NCBI GenBank assembly: GCA_021813235.1
Contig: JAKALG010000026.1
Span: 1 to 9,614 of the forward strand
DNA length: 9,614 nucleotides
Source: a bacterium
Lineage (GTDB): Bacteria; Patescibacteria; Paceibacteria; UBA9973
Reading direction: 5' to 3'
Of the stretch, positions 3,003 through 9,614 are shown piece by piece. The notes under the pieces are model-generated. The model was not told where the DNA came from and made no database searches. It worked only from the letters and a program-made list of their open reading frames with translations. The translations under genes and the position numbers were made by a program. How positions within the stretch are numbered: the first letter of the stretch is position 1; each line of letters begins with the position of its first letter.

Positions 3003-3035
3003 GATAATTTGTTTTTATTTATAAATAGAAACAAG

Positions 3036-3048
3036 TTGTGTTTCACAA
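3036..3048 (+). repeat. Short hairpin before the terminator
   Basis: TTGTG (3036-3040) pairs with CACAA (3044-3048) around TTT, just upstream of the 3054 terminator. It may stabilise the transcript 3' end or be chance. Confidence 0.3.
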
Positions 3049-3053
3049 GTATT

Positions 3054-3095
3054 TCTCCCGATTGTTGTCGAACAGTCGGGAGATTTATTTTATTA
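3054..3095 (+). terminator. Strong intrinsic terminator
   Basis: TCTCCCGATTGTT (3054-3066) pairs with AACAGTCGGGAGA (3071-3083): 13 pairs with one G-U, closed by a GTCG loop and followed by TTTATTTTATTATT. It separates the 2772-3002 gene from the amidoligase unit, so the latter needs its own promoter or antitermination. Confidence 0.9.
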
Positions 3096-3110
3096 TTAAT
3101 CAATAAAAGT

Positions 3111-3794
3111 ATGAGAGAATTCCAAGTTGGAGATTGTGTTGAGCTTGCAAAAGATAGTAAATTCGCAAGACAGCCAGCTAGATATGGTTGCGAAAATGAC
3201 GGAGTAATTACAGATATTATTGAACAAGAAGGAATAGGAAAAATCAACATTGTCAAGTTCGATAAAAATGACCACACTAATTCCCTGTACTTTAATTATA
3301 TGGATAAAGATTTGGTAAAACAAGCAGTCTCAAAGAAAGAAACTGTTTCAAAATCTCCCAAAAAAGCAGATGACAAAAAGAAGATAATCATTGAAGCAAT
3401 TCGTGAAGATGGTGTTACTAAATTCATGTTTGAAGTTGATGCCCGTATAACAAAAATGTACGAGGGACAATCAACAGAAATTAAACCCAGTGGAAAGTGG
3501 GAGGGGTTGAAGTTCTACTATATACCATCGTTACTCGAAAGTTCTATCTATCAACATAAACTTTCTGAGTTTGGTTTATTTGATGACTATGGTTCTACTT
3601 TCTATCGAGATGGAAGAATGAATATCGCTTGGCTTAGAACAGTCGGTGGAAAAGGTACTATTATTATTGATGAAACCATAGAATTTGCACAGTTGAGTAT
3701 TCTTATCAAAAAGACAATGCAGTTCTTAAAAGAATACTTTGAGGAGTATTACAAAGAATTCAAAATAAAGGGCGAATTAACTGTTGAGGTATAG
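3111..3794 (+). CDS. SH3/KOW-like two-domain protein linked to the amidoligase, 227 aa
   Basis: The product is 227 residues from the ATG at 3111; an upstream TTG at 3009 would place the terminator inside the gene and is rejected. Residues 4-70 form an SH3/KOW-like module (FQVGDCVELAKD, NDGVITDIIEQEG, KINIVKFD). A lysine/serine-rich linker follows (about 71-91). The C-terminal domain (92-227) alternates strands and ends in a long helix (ETIEFAQLSILIKKTMQFLKEYFEEYYKEF); I do not recognise it. It leads the amidoligase-GATase unit, six bases ahead of the amidoligase. Its stop is TAG, the only TAG stop among the genes called here, and the frame continues without interruption into the amidoligase. 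It could be the modified protein, a targeting factor, or by rare readthrough an amidoligase extension. Confidence 0.75.
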   Translation: MREFQVGDCVELAKDSKFARQPARYGCENDGVITDIIEQEGIGKINIVKFDKNDHTNSLYFNYMDKDLVKQAVSKKETVSKSPKKADDKKKIIIEAIREDGVTKFMFEVDARITKMYEGQSTEIKPSGKWEGLKFYYIPSLLESSIYQHKLSEFGLFDDYGSTFYRDGRMNIAWLRTVGGKGTIIIDETIEFAQLSILIKKTMQFLKEYFEEYYKEFKIKGELTVEV

Positions 3795-3800
3795 CATAGT

Positions 3801-4640
3801 ATGTGTAACAAAATTCACAAGTTCGGTTTCGAAATTGAGGGAGAATTTACCCACTCTATGATAAAAAATAAATTGGAAATTGCTAACTTTGATGAGGACG
3901 AGTATGAAGAAAGTAGGGAGTCAGATTATGGAGGAATGCACTCAGATAGTAGTGTTTCTAGTTGTTATAATGAGTCAAGAGCTACGAGGGCATATAAGAA
4001 ATGGCATGAGAAACACAACAATGATATGATAGAAGCTGAATTTGCTTCTGCGCCATTTCCTTTTACAGAAAGTGGTATTAAAAAATCACTAAAAGTATTT
4101 GATTTATTTCAAGAGGGATGGGAGAACGGAGAATATCACAACAATCCCAGTTGTGGATTTCATATTCATGTTAGTTTCACTCCCGAAGAAGTACCACCAG
4201 AAATAGTCAGTGAAGAATTTGATAAATACTTCACAGAAAGGATGGCTTCTACTTTTACAAAAGAGTTTAAGGAAAGAAAGAATAACAGATACTGTATGGC
4301 AGGAAAATTAACAGAAGTGGAAATAGCAAACAAACAACACGATAGATATAGAGCTGTTAATTTTAATCATTTAAGCGATAGAAGAAAAACTATTGAGTTC
4401 AGAATATTCCCTTCAGCAGAACCGAAGAAGATGTTAGAGTATCTTCAATTCACATTGAAGGTAGTATCAGACTTCTTGACCAAACATAAATTACAAAGAC
4501 ACATAGTGTTTGAGATTGAAGAAGATACGATAACAAGCGTTGACTATAAGTCGATAGTCGACACAGAACCATTACAGGAAGAATTTAAAGATATAATAAT
4601 TCCTTCCCGAATGGATAGTAATATAAATATGACAACATAA
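3801..4640 (+). CDS. Putative amidoligase (COOH-NH2 ligase, glutamine-synthetase-like fold)
   Basis: The 279-residue product carries the signature of the putative amidoligase family (Pfam Amidoligase_2): FGFEIEGE at 8-15, a GGMHSDSSV segment at 44-52, an IEAEFASAPF strand at 77-86, CGFHIHVSF at 118-126, and RYRAVNFNH...TIEFRIFPSA at 183-206. In this fold related to glutamate-cysteine ligase, the acidic residues bind Mg-ATP and the His and Arg residues act at the carboxylate. The predicted reaction is ATP-dependent amide formation between a carboxyl group and ammonia or an amine. The GATase gene overlaps its stop by one base (TAATG), the classic pairing in which the partner supplies ammonia. 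The substrate is not evident. It starts MC like its partner, probably by coincidence. Confidence 0.85.
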   Translation: MCNKIHKFGFEIEGEFTHSMIKNKLEIANFDEDEYEESRESDYGGMHSDSSVSSCYNESRATRAYKKWHEKHNNDMIEAEFASAPFPFTESGIKKSLKVFDLFQEGWENGEYHNNPSCGFHIHVSFTPEEVPPEIVSEEFDKYFTERMASTFTKEFKERKNNRYCMAGKLTEVEIANKQHDRYRAVNFNHLSDRRKTIEFRIFPSAEPKKMLEYLQFTLKVVSDFLTKHKLQRHIVFEIEEDTITSVDYKSIVDTEPLQEEFKDIIIPSRMDSNINMTT

Positions 4641-5707
4641 TGTGTAAACTTATAATAGGAATGCAGAAACAAGACAATACCGATTTATTTAGTGCCATAT
4701 ATGCTCAAAGAAATTTATTAAAGGGTGAGCTAGATGGAATAGGTGGTATGTCTGTTATGAAAGATGGCAGTGTAAATATATATAGAGATATGGATGACTA
4801 TGATTTGATTATTGGAAACGTATTAAGAGACGTTGCTGAGTCAAGATTGGTCGTTCTTCATTCACGTACCAGTACAGGTGGCGAGCATTCACTTCTCAAC
4901 GTACATTTATTCAGACATGGTAACTGGGTATTCGCTCATAATGGGTTCGTTAGTGCTTATAGTAGGTGGGGGGCATATCAGGGTTATGATAGACAAGTAA
5001 GCACCCAACCACCAATGGGGTTTAATACTTACCATAAAGTAGATAAATATGATAGTATAGCTATGAACGAGATAGAACGCAAGCAACTCGAACGACAATT
5101 CGATGCACTAAACTATAAACTTACAAATTGTAGAAAGTGCATTTCTTCTAAAAGTGGATGTTGCCAGAAACATAAGAACCTGTTGAAAAAAATTGACAAC
5201 ATTTCCGAGAAGTTGTGGGGTATTTCAGGAGTTGAATATGCAACTGAGGATGGAGATATAGAATATGGAGATATGCAAACAAGTCTATCTCTTGTTAATA
5301 AAGATGGTACAAAATCACAAATACAAGAGATTGAGAATAAACTTTGTGATAGCTTTCAATTCTTAAATAGCTTGCCAGATAAGTTGACAAAAGAAAAATT
5401 AGAGAGTAAGGTAGAGGAAGACGGTTTTAGTGGTATGGGATTTCTATTTAACACTAAAACATTAGAAGGTTTTGTTATCGTCAAGAAGACATGTTATGCG
5501 TTGACTGATATAGAGAATACTTATTCCCTATTTTGTAGCTTTGACCCAGCAACCACATTCAAAATGGACTATCCGAATAAGAATTTATTTGGGATTGATG
5601 TGGAGGGAGAATATGATTTTAGAACATTGGATGTAAAGAAGCTATCCATAATAAATTCAATATACAATATAAAAGCGGAAGTCGAACCGCAATCAAATAA
5701 GAAATAA
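4640..5707 (+). CDS. Class II glutamine amidotransferase (Ntn-hydrolase), amidoligase partner
   Basis: The 355-residue product begins Met-Cys; after Met removal Cys2 is the expected N-terminal nucleophile that hydrolyses glutamine to glutamate and ammonia. Supporting motifs are LHSRTSTGG (73-81, the usual H.R..T.G region), NVHLF (87-91), VFAHNGFVSA (97-106) and, later, CDSFQFLNSL (236-245) and DGFSGMGFLF (261-270), which match the usual SD.E and G..A... stretches. Between the HNG and CDS motifs there is a long insertion (about 115-235) containing a Cys/His cluster: C164, C167, C174, C175 and H178. No synthetase domain is fused, so ammonia probably goes to the amidoligase encoded just upstream with a one-base overlap. 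Typical housekeeping roles such as PurF or AsnB are unlikely given this context. Confidence 0.85.
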   Translation: MCKLIIGMQKQDNTDLFSAIYAQRNLLKGELDGIGGMSVMKDGSVNIYRDMDDYDLIIGNVLRDVAESRLVVLHSRTSTGGEHSLLNVHLFRHGNWVFAHNGFVSAYSRWGAYQGYDRQVSTQPPMGFNTYHKVDKYDSIAMNEIERKQLERQFDALNYKLTNCRKCISSKSGCCQKHKNLLKKIDNISEKLWGISGVEYATEDGDIEYGDMQTSLSLVNKDGTKSQIQEIENKLCDSFQFLNSLPDKLTKEKLESKVEEDGFSGMGFLFNTKTLEGFVIVKKTCYALTDIENTYSLFCSFDPATTFKMDYPNKNLFGIDVEGEYDFRTLDVKKLSIINSIYNIKAEVEPQSNKK

Positions 5708-5711
5708 CAAG

Positions 5712-5972
5712 ATGTACATTTTATTAGCAGGTATAATGTTCCTCATTATCGGCATATATACATTCTTCAAAGCCGTAAGTGAAGTAGAGTATATGAAATT
5801 TCTCAATAAGGAGAATACATTTATGATAATGTTAATACTTAAAGAGATGAATATAAGTAAACAGTTAATAGTCGATACCGCAATATTCAAACGCAAAGAG
5901 ATTATGTCATTTGCTATGGATATATTAGATGAGATTTCTAAACGTGAGAACGTGAGTGGGACGAAGATATGA
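5712..5972 (+). CDS. Small membrane-anchored protein, 86 aa
   Basis: The 86-residue product has one N-terminal transmembrane segment (YILLAGIMFLIIGIYTFF, residues 2-19) and then a charged, helical domain of about 65 residues (KFLNKENTF..., ILKEMNISKQLIVDT, FKRKEIMSFAMDILDEISKRE). The short N-terminus with no positive charge before the segment, followed by lysines after it, favours a cytoplasmic C-terminal domain. It begins 4 bases after the GATase stop, so it belongs to the amidation unit and might bring that activity or its target to the membrane. That role is inferred only from position. No family recognised. Confidence 0.65.
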   Translation: MYILLAGIMFLIIGIYTFFKAVSEVEYMKFLNKENTFMIMLILKEMNISKQLIVDTAIFKRKEIMSFAMDILDEISKRENVSGTKI

Positions 5973-5994
5973 ACCAAGAATAAAATATAAGATA

Positions 5995-6018
5995 GATAAA
6001 TTTAAAAAATAAAGGTCG
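5995..6018 (+). promoter_or_regulatory. AT-rich element with AAAGGTCG upstream of the 6038 start
   Basis: GATAAATTTAAA (5995-6006) leads to AATAAAGGTCG (6008-6018), 19 bases before the ATG at 6038. It closely resembles 1749-1767. It may mark the start of the 6038-8205 transcription unit. No terminator is visible between 5972 and 6038, so readthrough from upstream is also possible. Confidence 0.35.
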
Positions 6019-6037
6019 ATAATAATACATTACTTAT

Positions 6038-7147
6038 ATGCCAATACCGAGAGTAAGAATAATGGATGATGGACAAGATGGTGTAACGGGATTTCAAACA
6101 TCCCCTCAAACATCCAGTGAACAACAAGAACAAACACAATTATTGCAATCGCGACTAGCGCAAGTATTTGAAGAAATGCACCCGCAAACACACCATCAAG
6201 TTCCAACAGAATTTTCAACCACATATACGCCATACTATTACGATTATATAAGTGTATCTGAAGATTATAAGGATAATATACTAACGAGAGAGAATAAAAA
6301 TAAACGTGTAAAAGATATTATCGATAGAATTAAAAGTATAAAAATAGAAAACTTAACTGAGGTAAGTGTCTTATTATATAATATAATGTCTATAAATAAT
6401 CTTACAGAAAAGTATATATATGATTTATTAGATTATTTATCATATTCTGATAATGATTTAGAAGATGTTCAACATATATCAGATGATGATTTAATTGAAA
6501 ATTTATATACATCTATATCTAAATATCTTTATCAATCTCCAAAAGAAATTATATCAACACGTTATATAAAATATTCAAGTCAAACATTTTCCTTTCCGAT
6601 AGATTTATTATTTAAATTAAATAAAGTATTTAAAAAATTAAACTGTGTGGTAGAGAACGGACAGGTATTCCACCGATACAATAGGAATGGAGTTATCGTA
6701 TATGAGGATGATAGTTTGATATTGAAATTTGGTAAACTAGATTTCAATATGTTGCAGAAACATCATGTATGTAATATATGTAAATCTACTAGCAACAATG
6801 GATTCTGGATGAATTCATTAGTTTATAAATACGATTATAATACATATGGAGTTCAACCGTTGTCATCACATCATAATTATTGTCCCATGTTTGATAATAT
6901 AAATATGTCATCGTTTATAGGTATAAAAACTATGAAAGAATTAAATATTATATTTAGTTCCTCAAATAAAACATATATCAACAGCGCAATAAGTATTCCA
7001 TCTATTCTATTAGATAGAAAATATGGCGATTATACTGAGAATAAACCATTTATAGATATAAATATATCAGATATAATTGATTGGCTCGATAAATATGTAG
7101 ATGCAATACAAGAAAAATTATTACCATTAACCCATAGACAAATATGA
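6038..7147 (+). CDS. Unrecognised 369-aa protein with disordered N-terminus and Cys/His cluster
   Basis: Residues 1-65 are rich in Gln, Thr, Ser and Pro (GFQTSPQTSSEQQEQTQ) and probably disordered. Residues 75-205 are helical and rich in Ile, Leu, Lys, Asn and Tyr. The C-terminal third contains HHVCNICKS (242-250) and SSHHNYCPMF (276-285), whose Cys-x2-Cys and His-His-x2-Cys could form one zinc site. Codons are extremely AT-rich, with frequent TTA, ATA and AAT. It leads a run of four genes and overlaps the next by ATGA. No structural, enzymatic or membrane motif is recognised. Phage virion or assembly proteins with low-complexity N-termini are one possibility, but nothing proves it. Confidence 0.7.
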   Translation: MPIPRVRIMDDGQDGVTGFQTSPQTSSEQQEQTQLLQSRLAQVFEEMHPQTHHQVPTEFSTTYTPYYYDYISVSEDYKDNILTRENKNKRVKDIIDRIKSIKIENLTEVSVLLYNIMSINNLTEKYIYDLLDYLSYSDNDLEDVQHISDDDLIENLYTSISKYLYQSPKEIISTRYIKYSSQTFSFPIDLLFKLNKVFKKLNCVVENGQVFHRYNRNGVIVYEDDSLILKFGKLDFNMLQKHHVCNICKSTSNNGFWMNSLVYKYDYNTYGVQPLSSHHNYCPMFDNINMSSFIGIKTMKELNIIFSSSNKTYINSAISIPSILLDRKYGDYTENKPFIDINISDIIDWLDKYVDAIQEKLLPLTHRQI

Positions 7148-7479
7148 AATATATCATAGTTATCATTCTATTATGTATACCATTACATATATACGCACAG
7201 GAAATACCAATATGCAATTCGTATGTCGAACGAAGCAGTGATTGGTACGTTTGTTATATCTCGAATTTACAGAGACAATTACAAACATTATTAAATTATT
7301 TAAAAGAAATGGAAAAGGATAATGTTGCTGGGCAACCAGTATCACCACAGGAATTACAATCAACACCGACAACGACAGAATTAGAAAGCAATGAACCACA
7401 AACAAAGGTCGATATACAGGAAGACCCAAACGCAAAAGACAACAAAGGTGGAACAGTATCACCAAATACTTGGGCATAA
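7144..7479 (+). CDS. Secreted protein with signal peptide and low-complexity tail, 111 aa
   Basis: The N-terminus MKYIIVIILLCIPLHIYAQ is a typical signal peptide: one lysine, a hydrophobic core, and cleavage expected near IYA|Q at residues 16-19, a style common in Bacteroidota. The Cys at position 11 lies within the core and lacks a small residue before it, so it is not a convincing lipobox. The mature part has two cysteines (24 and 37), possibly a disulfide, then a short coiled-coil-like helix (LQRQLQTLLNYLKEMEKD, about 42-59) and a Pro/Thr/Gln/Glu-rich tail. It would act outside the cytoplasmic membrane, perhaps in lysis or on the cell envelope; this is inference. Its ATG overlaps the upstream TGA (ATGA). 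Confidence 0.7.
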   Translation: MKYIIVIILLCIPLHIYAQEIPICNSYVERSSDWYVCYISNLQRQLQTLLNYLKEMEKDNVAGQPVSPQELQSTPTTTELESNEPQTKVDIQEDPNAKDNKGGTVSPNTWA

Positions 7480-7489
7480 TATAAAATAT

Positions 7490-7702
7490 ATGTCAAGAAG
7501 ATTAAACATAAGAAACGCAACCGATTTGTTCTTTAAGATTTATGGTAAAATTCCAACATTCAAAGAGCTCCAGCAATTCATGGATAACTACCATAAACCT
7601 GTAGAAGATGACACGATAGATGAGACTGAGGAGCAAGTTGAGAAAAGATTAGAAATTAAAATGAAACGTAAAAGATATTTTGTAACATCAAAAATAAAAT
7701 GA
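7490..7702 (+). CDS. Small charged hypothetical protein, 70 aa
   Basis: The 70-residue product is called from the ATG at 7490. The frame extends upstream to 7391, but that part overlaps the secreted-protein gene, so the internal ATG ten bases after that gene is preferred. The N-terminal half (NIRNATDLFFKIYGKIPTF) is helical, followed by KELQQFMDNYHKP, an acidic stretch (VEDDTIDETEEQVE) and a very basic C-terminus (KMKRKRYFVTSKIK). That charge pattern suits a nucleic-acid-binding or scaffold protein. No family recognised. It overlaps the downstream regulator gene by ATGA, so the two are translationally coupled. Confidence 0.6.
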   Translation: MSRRLNIRNATDLFFKIYGKIPTFKELQQFMDNYHKPVEDDTIDETEEQVEKRLEIKMKRKRYFVTSKIK

Positions 7703-8205
7703 ATACAGCTAAACTAAAATCATATAACAAAAAACGTAACGACCATATAGAGAAACTTCGTTATGATAAACACATGACGTTGCAAGAGATAGCAAACAAG
7801 TTTAACATTACCCGTGAACGGGTACGGCAAATACTTTTAGGTTATCTTGAACAACATCCAGAGTGGGAGGGACTTCGCATATCCCATAGAGCATATGCAA
7901 TAGACGAAAGAATAAAAGTAATCGAGTGTAAACAATGTTCTACTCCATTTCCTATAAGTATAAAATTAAATAGGAAATTCTGTGATAGGAAATGCTTCCA
8001 TGAATGGATACATAACCATCGAAAGATTGTTACCATTGAAGATAGAAGGCAACGTGATAGAATTCGAATGAATAAATATTATCACGAGCATAAGAATGAC
8101 GAACATTATAAAGCTAAACTTGAACAATATCGCAAGAAAGCTAGGGAAAATGGTTACTATAAAAAGTATTACCAGATGAAAAGGAAAAATCAAGTTGCAT
8201 TATAA
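7699..8205 (+). CDS. Sigma-region-4-like HTH plus zinc-finger protein, probable regulator
   Basis: Residues 27-47 (TLQEIANKFNITRERVRQILL) closely match the region 4.2 helix-turn-helix of sigma-70 factors (TLEEI....TRERIRQI), which reads -35 promoter DNA. A second module holds C77-x2-C80 and C95-x3-C99 (ECKQC...KFCDRKCF), a four-cysteine zinc finger like those at the start of some HNH endonucleases. The remaining 65 residues are highly charged, rich in Lys, Arg, Tyr and His. Other sigma regions are missing, so it is not a full sigma factor. It is more likely a phage transcription regulator or DNA-binding protein; an endonuclease remnant is possible, but no HNH residues are visible. It overlaps the upstream gene by ATGA and ends the run before the structured region. 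Confidence 0.75.
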   Translation: MNTAKLKSYNKKRNDHIEKLRYDKHMTLQEIANKFNITRERVRQILLGYLEQHPEWEGLRISHRAYAIDERIKVIECKQCSTPFPISIKLNRKFCDRKCFHEWIHNHRKIVTIEDRRQRDRIRMNKYYHEHKNDEHYKAKLEQYRKKARENGYYKKYYQMKRKNQVAL

Positions 8206-8732: not shown

Positions 8733-8918
8733 ATGAAAGAAATAAAAATACAAAGAGCGTGGCTTGAAAGGTTGCTAGAATATGTGAAAGTTACGCAAGA
8801 ATTCATGGACAAAGATTTAGACTATATAGATAGGAAAGTCCTGTTGGACGCACACATCCCTGAATTAGTAGGGTACTGCTTGTCCGCAAAAACAATATTC
8901 AAATATAACAAGAAATAA
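8733..8918 (+). CDS. Small phage-type hypothetical protein, 61 aa
   Basis: The 61-residue product starts at ATG 8733. The frame is open from a TTG at 8553, but the 60 codons before the ATG overlap the structured region and look non-coding. The protein reads IKIQRAWLERLLEYVKV near the start and ends LVGYCLSAKTIFKYNKK. The ending L.GY..SAKTI.KY resembles a small protein I have met in phages of Bacteroidota and Firmicutes, with no known role. It is probably two helices. It begins the last unit of the window, and the next gene follows after 6 bases. Confidence 0.7.
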   Translation: MKEIKIQRAWLERLLEYVKVTQEFMDKDLDYIDRKVLLDAHIPELVGYCLSAKTIFKYNKK

Positions 8919-8924
8919 CCCCCT

Positions 8925-9152
8925 ATGTCCCACGATACTACACAGAAGAAAATAGAGATAGGCGATATCGTTTTATGTAAAAATTCTTTACCTTTTGGCA
9001 GAAGTGGTAATAGAAAAATATTGCGAATAGCCGACGGTCATTCTATATATGTGAAACTAACTAATGAGGATAGTGCATATCAAAATAGAGCACCACATCA
9101 AGATTTCTGGCAGGTTATGTGGGAAGATTTTCAAGTAATTAACCACCCCTAA
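8925..9152 (+). CDS. SH3-like small protein, 75 aa
   Basis: The 75-residue product begins with a short leader (MSHDTTQKK) and then IEIGDIVLCKN, the first strand and turn of an SH3/KOW-like barrel. RKILRIADGHSIYVKL and FWQVMWEDFQVI supply further strands. Two other genes here, at 1793 and 3111, carry the same type of module, so this barrel is recurrent in the element. A stretch of its start region (8934-8953) is repeated exactly at the start of the next gene. There is no Shine-Dalgarno motif; a C-rich tract sits just before the ATG. It probably binds nucleic acid or protein; the partner is unknown. Confidence 0.7.
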   Translation: MSHDTTQKKIEIGDIVLCKNSLPFGRSGNRKILRIADGHSIYVKLTNEDSAYQNRAPHQDFWQVMWEDFQVINHP

Positions 9153-9179
9153 TATGGAAGATACTACACAGAAGAAAAT
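8934..9179 (+). repeat. Direct repeat of a gene-start region (8934-8953 and 9160-9179)
   Basis: The 20-base word GATACTACACAGAAGAAAAT is present at 8934-8953, inside the 8925 gene start, and again at 9160-9179, inside the methyltransferase start. Both are read in the frame giving DTTQKK. Each is preceded by a CCCCTA-type tract and ATG, and followed by AGAGATA or GAGATA. The copies span stop-start junctions. Confidence 0.85.
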
Positions 9180-9614
9180 GAGATACCTTTCATTATTTAG
9201 TGGTATTGGAGGTTTTGAATTAGGAATACAACAAGCATATGAAAATTTACGACCCTTACAACAAAGTATTTCCAAAAGAACAAAAGATATGTACGACACT
9301 TCGGACAAACTACAGCAATGGGAATGCGTGGGTTATTCTGAAATCGACAAATACGCAATCCAAATCTACGAAAAACATTTTAACCACAAAAACTATGGAG
9401 ATATCACCAAAATCAACGCAGAAGAACTCCCAGATTTTGACTTGCTTGTCGGAGGATTCCCTTGTCAATCTTTTTCAATCGCTGGAAAACGAAAAGGATT
9501 TGACGATACCAGAGGAACGCTCTTCTTTGACATTGCGAGAATACTGCGAGCAAAACAACCTAAATTATTCCTCCTTGAAAATGTTAAAGGACTTCTTAGC
9601 CACGACAACGGAAA
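9154..9614 (+). CDS. DNA (cytosine-5-)-methyltransferase, N-terminal part (cut by right edge)
   Basis: The visible 153 residues contain the ordered motifs of C5 methyltransferases: motif I LFSGIGGFELG (14-24, SAM binding), motif II YSEIDKYAIQIYEKHF (61-76), motif III YGDIT (81-85), catalytic motif IV GGFPCQSFS (100-108, with Cys104 the nucleophile), and motif VI LENVKG (141-146). They transfer a methyl group from SAM to cytosine C5 in a specific DNA site. The target-recognition domain lies beyond the edge, so specificity is unknown. About 25 residues (30-55) are inserted between motifs I and II. The ATG at 9154 is used, but Met9 (9178) begins the conserved part and is an alternative; the first 8 residues come from the duplicated start. 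No restriction gene is visible, so it is probably a solitary phage methylase. Confidence 0.92.
   Translation, partial: MEDTTQKKMRYLSLFSGIGGFELGIQQAYENLRPLQQSISKRTKDMYDTSDKLQQWECVGYSEIDKYAIQIYEKHFNHKNYGDITKINAEELPDFDLLVGGFPCQSFSIAGKRKGFDDTRGTLFFDIARILRAKQPKLFLLENVKGLLSHDNG

Follow-up and report, generated by a model that had tools for sequence, protein, structure and literature searches.

A recurrent third partner of the amidoligase–amidotransferase pair in a probable phage gene cassette

Background

Phage gene pairs encoding an amidoligase-family ligase and a glutamine amidotransferase have been noted in several papers, the available excerpts of which identify no substrate, and the locus considered here raises the question of what such pairs modify and whether the genes beside them belong to the same system. 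The cassette occupies positions 3111–5972 on the + strand of a 9,614-nucleotide (nt) stretch of contig JAKALG010000026.1, hereafter the window, whose main genes all lie on one strand. Its four open reading frames (ORFs), which are confirmed as laid out in a preliminary description made from the DNA letters, encode an unclassified protein that we call P1, an Amidoligase_2 ligase, a class II glutamine amidotransferase and a small protein with a hydrophobic N-terminus (Table 1). The ligase–amidotransferase pair is of a kind already known from phages; the conserved third partner, P1, is the new part. The window itself probably derives from a phage, because its relatives are viral contigs of IMG/VR on which some of the neighboring ORFs matched large-subunit families of terminase. 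Searches of the window for tRNAs and Rfam families recovered no tRNA and no family at the gathering score.

Results and discussion

Recurrence of P1 next to the ligase

BLASTP searches from the window recovered both P1 and the ligase in the close loci L067, L068, L069 (on the same contig as L001), L002 and L003, all of which also carry the amidotransferase, that of L002 having been recognized only later. A profile of five close P1 sequences detected the versions in L003, L029, L004, L013 and L005, each encoded directly 5' of a ligase, with no other new match at E <= 10. Seven further matches to sequences on which the profile had not been trained were obtained at E <= 1.7e-5 with a second-round profile of nine rows (L003, L034, L018, L058, L009, L032 and L024), and six of these stand directly 5' of the ligase, L058 being the exception. 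When a profile of 23 close rows was run over the 6,920 ORFs of the loci, nine untrained P1s (L002, the truncated version in L003, L029, L004, L013, L018, L005, L009 and L024; E up to 0.063) scored better than any other ORF, the best of which reached E 0.16. Each of the nine is encoded immediately 5' of a ligase, and these ligases share 24–33% identity with that of the window over the aligned parts. The tests with untrained sequences thus comprise the five-row, nine-row and 23-row profiles; the rows of the last are all close, yet 19 of them were found via a profile holding remote rows.

With the broadest profile, P1 is present in 14 of the 66 ligase loci sampled, a partly circular tally in that the profile already contains most of those sequences, and a recognizable amidotransferase lies nearby in 42 of the 66. 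The regular expression behind the latter count misses L032, where an amidotransferase is visible by eye, and assigns the wrong Cys start in L001/L069 and L002. The ligase loci number at least 66 and are a sample, with L031 and L040 lying on one contig. Given these two frequencies, the enzyme pair is the general unit and P1 the mark of one of its branches.

For comparisons across complete cassettes we used a set of 16, namely the window and 15 loci, leaving out L003 as its P1 is truncated at the contig end. The gap between P1 and the ligase ranges from -14 to +24 nt in 14 of the 16, and the two reading frames overlap in five. The distance matrices of the three proteins are correlated (Spearman 0.51 for P1 and ligase, 0.47 for P1 and amidotransferase, 0.61 for ligase and amidotransferase), with none of 2000 permutations reaching any of these values. 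P1-like matches in L017 and L033 (E 0.055 and 0.015), likewise 5' of the ligase, were excluded from the counts, and set A4 was used without P0026 and P0027, which are the same proteins as L002 and the window, and without the short P0049 and P0051. On a 150-kb contig (L031) the P1–ligase–amidotransferase set occurs twice (5658–7573 and 11230–13319), with an extra lone ligase between the copies; the first P1 was assigned by profile (E 1.3e-7), the second by position and by eye.

Two scans with P1 as the lead, one of IMG/VR and one of GTDB, yielded nothing beyond loci already known; the matches in IMG/VR were limited to L068 and to L072, which is the contig of L067. The GTDB genome contigs scanned contained no relative of the ligase or of P1, and single-sequence scans of IMG/VR with the window ligase or amidotransferase found no relative, alignment queries alone having succeeded; as all of these scans rely on a few exact peptide patterns, they do not prove absence. 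Among cultured phages, tblastn gave no match to the window ligase or amidotransferase, to the remote P1s of L018 and L032 or to the remote ligase of L009. The remote amidotransferase of L005 matched 11 records, and the P1 profile found no P1 among 14 proteins from four of them.

The P1 protein

The ATG of P1 at 3111 lies within a longer, mechanically called ORF that begins with TTG at 3009; its use as the start is supported by a terminator-like hairpin that falls inside the longer ORF. As this strong hairpin ends just 27 nt upstream of the ATG, a new transcription unit probably starts with the cassette. The SH3-like character noted in the preliminary description is borne out for the first 78 residues, for which a structure search supports an SH3-like barrel. 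This domain is absent from several P1 members, and the part shared by the family is the C-terminal core of about 140 residues, in which Asn171 is conserved in 41 of 41 aligned rows and Arg176 in 40 of 41. The core is predicted with a pLDDT (predicted local distance difference test) of 94.8. The full-length structure search mostly probed the SH3 part, so the core was modeled and searched separately against solved structures, and this gave no clear fold match. Neither did the core match any Pfam, PHROG or NCBIfam family above the cut-off, and the weak Pfam and PHROG matches of P1 were judged to be due to chance.

Small SH3- or KOW-like proteins or domains are also suggested, by eye and by weak matches, at 1793–2401 and 8925–9152 of the window in addition to the one at the start of P1 (3111–3344), and L067 and L068 seem to carry comparable ones. 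The C-termini of the ligases P0012 and P0015 look like genuine SH3-like domains by eye; a local profile returned E 0.038 for the former and no match for the latter, and we make no claim for them.

Table 1. Features of the cassette and its immediate upstream region
Feature	Position in window	Strand	Basis
Terminator-like hairpin (13-pair stem, T-rich tail)	3054..3083	+	-25.1 kcal/mol for 3045–3100; z -7.5; 0/200 shuffles as stable
P1, 227 residues, unclassified cassette partner	3111..3794	+	ORF; no family above cut-off
Optional SH3-like domain, P1 residues 1–78	3111..3344	+	Structure search of model
P1 core domain, residues 88–227	3372..3791	+	Structure model and 41-row alignment
Amidoligase_2 ligase, 279 residues	3801..4640	+	PF12224, 46 bits against cut-off of 22; conserved residues intact
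Class II glutamine amidotransferase, 355 residues	4640..5707	+	PF13230, 26.8 bits against cut-off of 23; Cys2, Arg76, Asn101-Gly102, Asp237
Zinc-finger-like stretch (C-x2-C...C-x2-H), amidotransferase residues 164–178	5129..5173	+	By eye, 4/5 rows of A2
86-residue protein, one N-terminal hydrophobic stretch	5712..5972	+	ORF and hydropathy

The ligase and the amidotransferase

Thirteen ligase residues are invariant in all 16 cassettes (G9, E11, E13, D49, S51, N115, G119, H121, H123, Y183, T197, E199 and R201), and we take the conserved Glu, His and Arg of the family motifs to be catalytic. In the amidotransferase nine residues are likewise invariant (C2, G33, H74, R76, H89, H100, N101, G102 and D237); Cys2 is presumably the N-terminal catalytic Cys, and R76, N101-G102 and D237 presumably form the glutamine site. 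The motifs quoted in the preliminary description (FGFEIEGE, CGFHIHVSF and TIEFRIF in the ligase; HSRTSTGG, HNG and the N-terminal Met-Cys in the amidotransferase) are all present, and homologs without the N-terminal Cys, which it had named as evidence against its proposal, were not seen. The intact residues suggest that both enzymes are active, and the synthesis of an amide with nitrogen from glutamine, as originally proposed, is the chemistry that the sequences best support. The one-base overlap reported for the genes holds for the ligase and amidotransferase, which share position 4640, and does not extend to the other junctions, where P1 and the ligase are 6 nt apart and the amidotransferase and the membrane protein 4 nt apart.

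The zinc-finger-like stretch of the amidotransferase sits in a long insertion that is missing from distant cassettes. In L002 an ORF resembling an HNH endonuclease by eye lies between the ligase and the amidotransferase (8900–9373, 9318–10355), and ATC rather than ATG precedes the Cys of the latter. Rfam gave no support for the idea that a group I intron separates the split genes of L002, the sole match being weak and unrelated (E 0.081).

Comparison with known cassettes

A related gene set in podoviruses has been termed a 'peptidoglycan modification cassette' and hypothesized to block superinfection (PMC5498523, PMC10580990, PMC3890496), and in Phage-ZRK32 such genes were tied to nitrogen and amino-acid metabolism (PMC10945688), as far as the excerpts available of these papers go. 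In LUZ24 the genes are ordered as COOH-NH2 ligase (gp16), the unclassified phrog_4877 protein gp17, ligase (gp18) and amidotransferase (gp19). Iyer et al. (2009) is reportedly the source analysis for phage cassettes of this kind. The phiEco32 protein phi32_85, which belongs to phrog_4877, is encoded two genes from the amidotransferase phi32_83; judging from their position and from annotated relatives, phi32_84 and phi32_86 are likely to be the two ligases of this phage. Proteins of the phrog_4877 type were found in 101 phage records with the LUZ24 query and in 113 with the phiEco32 query, records shared by the two being uncounted. In tf, UFV-P2 and 'otherone' their gene overlaps the annotated amidoligase gene, and in GAP52 and P59 it overlaps the gene that follows, which is unnamed; in the excerpt consulted for UFV-P2 the protein is tabulated merely as conserved hypothetical (PMC3890496).

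The window resembles the phiEco32/LUZ24-type cassettes in that an Amidoligase_2 gene adjoins one for a class II amidotransferase, and the LUZ24-type in that an unclassified protein is encoded directly 5' of the ligase, the two genes overlapping in LUZ24 as in tf, UFV-P2 and 'otherone'. It differs in the occupant of this slot, which is P1, a protein without a phrog_4877 match. Homology of P1 to gp17 or phi32_85 was tested twice and none was found at the profile level; in hhalign, the comparison of 41 rows of P1 with 8 of the phrog_4877 type gave a probability of 0.3% over 9 columns, and a phrog_4877 search of the 6,920 ORFs of the loci gave no match at E <= 1. In the environmental phage L032 the order is gamma-glutamyl cyclotransferase (GGACT), COOH-NH2 ligase, P1 (detected untrained by the second-round profile, E 1.7e-7), ligase and amidotransferase. 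As P1 here stands at the place of phrog_4877 and the profile comparison finds no homology, it is the slot that is conserved, with different occupants. In the phages C75C1 (L073:4001–4894) and ctfjg026 (L076:4001–5215) an amidotransferase-like N-terminus, with a GATase_4 score just under the cut-off, is fused to a gamma-glutamyl cyclotransferase domain, although the proteins are annotated as cyclotransferases alone; the pathway therefore seems tied to gamma-glutamyl chemistry in some members.

More distant parallels exist outside this group. The non-catalytic third subunit of the tRNA-dependent amidotransferase GatCAB holds the other two together; its families are unrelated to those of the cassette, and the comparison is one of analogy. 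MurT-GatD combines Mur-ligase and class I-type amidotransferase folds, unlike the window enzymes, which match Amidoligase_2 and GATase_4 in Pfam, and it is not known to include a P1. What this peptidoglycan-amidating pair shares with the cassette is the amidation of a carboxylate by two proteins, as the excerpt of its description indicates (PMC3267633). The OM43 phage MEP402 also has adjacent ligase and class II amidotransferase genes, according to the part of the report available (PMC10580990); unlike the window it showed no P1 among three proteins tested, and its ligase bears a long N-terminal extension. Excerpts of openly licensed papers describe no P1-like third partner, which is weak evidence of absence.

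A proposed three-part amidating enzyme and its alternatives

On balance, we favor the interpretation that P1, the ligase and the amidotransferase constitute a three-part glutamine-dependent amidating enzyme of phages, with P1 as a non-catalytic specificity or scaffold subunit. By family and intact residues, the amidotransferase would split glutamine and free ammonia, which would pass to the ligase; this would activate a carboxylate with ATP and join the ammonia to it. P1 would bind the ligase and either recognize the substrate or clamp the two enzymes together, as its conserved adjacency, the overlapping frames in some cassettes and the correlated divergence suggest. The SH3-like domain of the window P1 would be an optional add-on, perhaps used in docking. 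By analogy with the published interpretation of the phiEco32/LUZ24-type cassettes, a precursor of the cell wall or surface is the leading candidate for the substrate. The earlier suggestion of a virion, envelope or host protein found no support in this analysis.

Several observations weigh against a three-part enzyme. The amidotransferase intervenes between P1 and the ligase in L067, and in L058 P1 lies about 4.5 kb downstream of the ligase. In the ranking by the 23-row profile, a non-P1 ORF came ahead of the remote P1s of L032 (E 0.54), L058 and L031, and the P1 of L034 was absent; these four members required later profiles. The loci were retrieved via the ligase or amidotransferase, such that P1s encoded elsewhere would escape notice, apart from the two P1-led scans. 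The correlated distances show co-inheritance and cannot prove contact, from which the permutation test does not distinguish it. Lastly, 52 of the 66 ligase loci are without P1 at the threshold used, and the enzyme pair can thus exist alone. The same absence, together with the abundance of small genes of unassigned function in phage operons, would fit a P1 that is a passenger or regulator sitting in the operon by chance; we consider this unlikely, as the nine top-ranking untrained P1s all lie directly 5' of ligases that are only 24–33% identical to that of the window and the whole set is duplicated in L031.

Of the alternatives that concern the function of the whole cassette, the one that deserves most weight, though it is clearly less probable than a three-part enzyme, is a reduced phiEco32/LUZ24 'peptidoglycan modification' cassette, in which the amidation of a wall-peptide carboxylate would shield the wall or prevent superinfection, with P1 as only a minor helper. 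It draws on the published interpretations (PMC5498523, PMC10580990), in whose excerpts the wall role is itself a hypothesis, with the nitrogen feed into amino-acid metabolism proposed for Phage-ZRK32 as a related view (PMC10945688). Accessory genes of the phiEco32/LUZ24-type do occur among the relatives, namely PF14395 in L032 and L058, GGACT in L032 and a RimK-like ATP-grasp gene beside the amidotransferase in L018. Yet PF14395 is found in only 2 and GGACT in only 1 of 18 records, which may be fragments (the 16 with P1, L017 and L033), and Pfam recognized no PF14395, RimK-like ATP-grasp or gamma-glutamyl cyclotransferase gene among the 14 window proteins that it covered. P1 might instead serve as the substrate. 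It would then be a carrier or resemble a peptide, and the ligase would amidate or extend its carboxylate, in a chemistry akin to the carrier-bound kind or to that of ribosomally synthesized and post-translationally modified peptides. Its constant place beside the ligase, a short hydrophobic C-terminal strand with a penultimate acidic residue in many close members, and two adjacent Asp residues in most members (33/41 rows each) are compatible with this. It is nevertheless improbable, marginally more so than a passenger, because none of its acidic residues is invariant, Asn and Arg being the near-invariant ones; moreover, the core is modeled as a well-ordered domain and the C-terminal residues differ in remote members. 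The least likely of all is a modification of phage DNA bases, such as a 7-deazaguanine amide or a hypermodified pyrimidine, for which we see very little room as a general role. PTPS (QueD-like), radical-SAM (QueE-like) and GTP cyclohydrolase I genes in L004 (14344–15835), with QueC elsewhere on that contig, QueC on the L024 contig, the cytosine methyltransferase at the window end and single DNA methyltransferases among the neighbors all point that way. Against this, QueC occurs in just 2 of 18 records, and no DNA-modification family was matched in more than one of 96 neighbor ORFs (among the 25 commonest of 28 families and the 25 commonest of 54); the scan took 96 of the 162 ORFs listed, excluding cassette genes and some spurious-looking ORFs. 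As an observation in its own right, the Que-type set of L004 possibly serves 7-deazaguanine DNA modification.

The membrane protein and other genes of the window

The preliminary description's membrane-anchored protein is indeed an 86-residue product with a single N-terminal hydrophobic stretch, and its gene is probably co-transcribed with the cassette. Its suggestion that conserved flanking genes would indicate a system is upheld for P1, which recurs through its C-terminal core rather than its SH3-like domain, and fails for the membrane protein. In the close relative L068 the product of the next gene gives no BLASTP alignment with it, and an ORF with a 19-residue hydropathy mean of at least 1.8, a cut-off picked post hoc, follows the cassette in only 3 of 16 P1-bearing IMG/VR loci (L029, L032 and L069). 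It is thus not supported as a conserved cassette partner.

Downstream, positions 6038–7147 encode a 369-residue protein without a Pfam or NCBIfam match, for which only weak matches were obtained (PHROG, E 0.0097; PADLOC PDC-M63B, E 0.00053); weak PADLOC matches of two non-cassette window proteins were judged to be due to chance. A helix-turn-helix protein resembling sigma-70 region 4, with a zinc-finger-like Cys pattern by eye, is encoded at 7699–8205 and might act in the phage as a transcription factor or as an endonuclease. The N-terminal part of a DNA cytosine-5 methyltransferase (9154–9612) runs off the window. The eight ORF starts between 1793 and 6038 mostly lack a clear Shine-Dalgarno sequence by eye, which may hint at a host that uses it weakly.

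Conclusions

The P1 core is a confidently modeled domain for which the search of solved structures gave no clear counterpart. A bolder proposal, which we put forward tentatively and hold to be somewhat short of an even chance, is that P1 represents a new family, possibly with a new fold, and an obligate third subunit; P1 in uncultivated phages and phrog_4877 in those like phiEco32 and LUZ24 would then be apparently unrelated fillers of one slot, and many phage amidoligases would be three-part enzymes with exchangeable specificity subunits. The conserved partner offers a handle on these systems through co-purification, use as bait and comparison with the unrelated slot protein of cultured Escherichia coli and Pseudomonas phages. 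Laboratory phages, phiEco32 and LUZ24 among them, can thereby be used to test what the cassettes modify.

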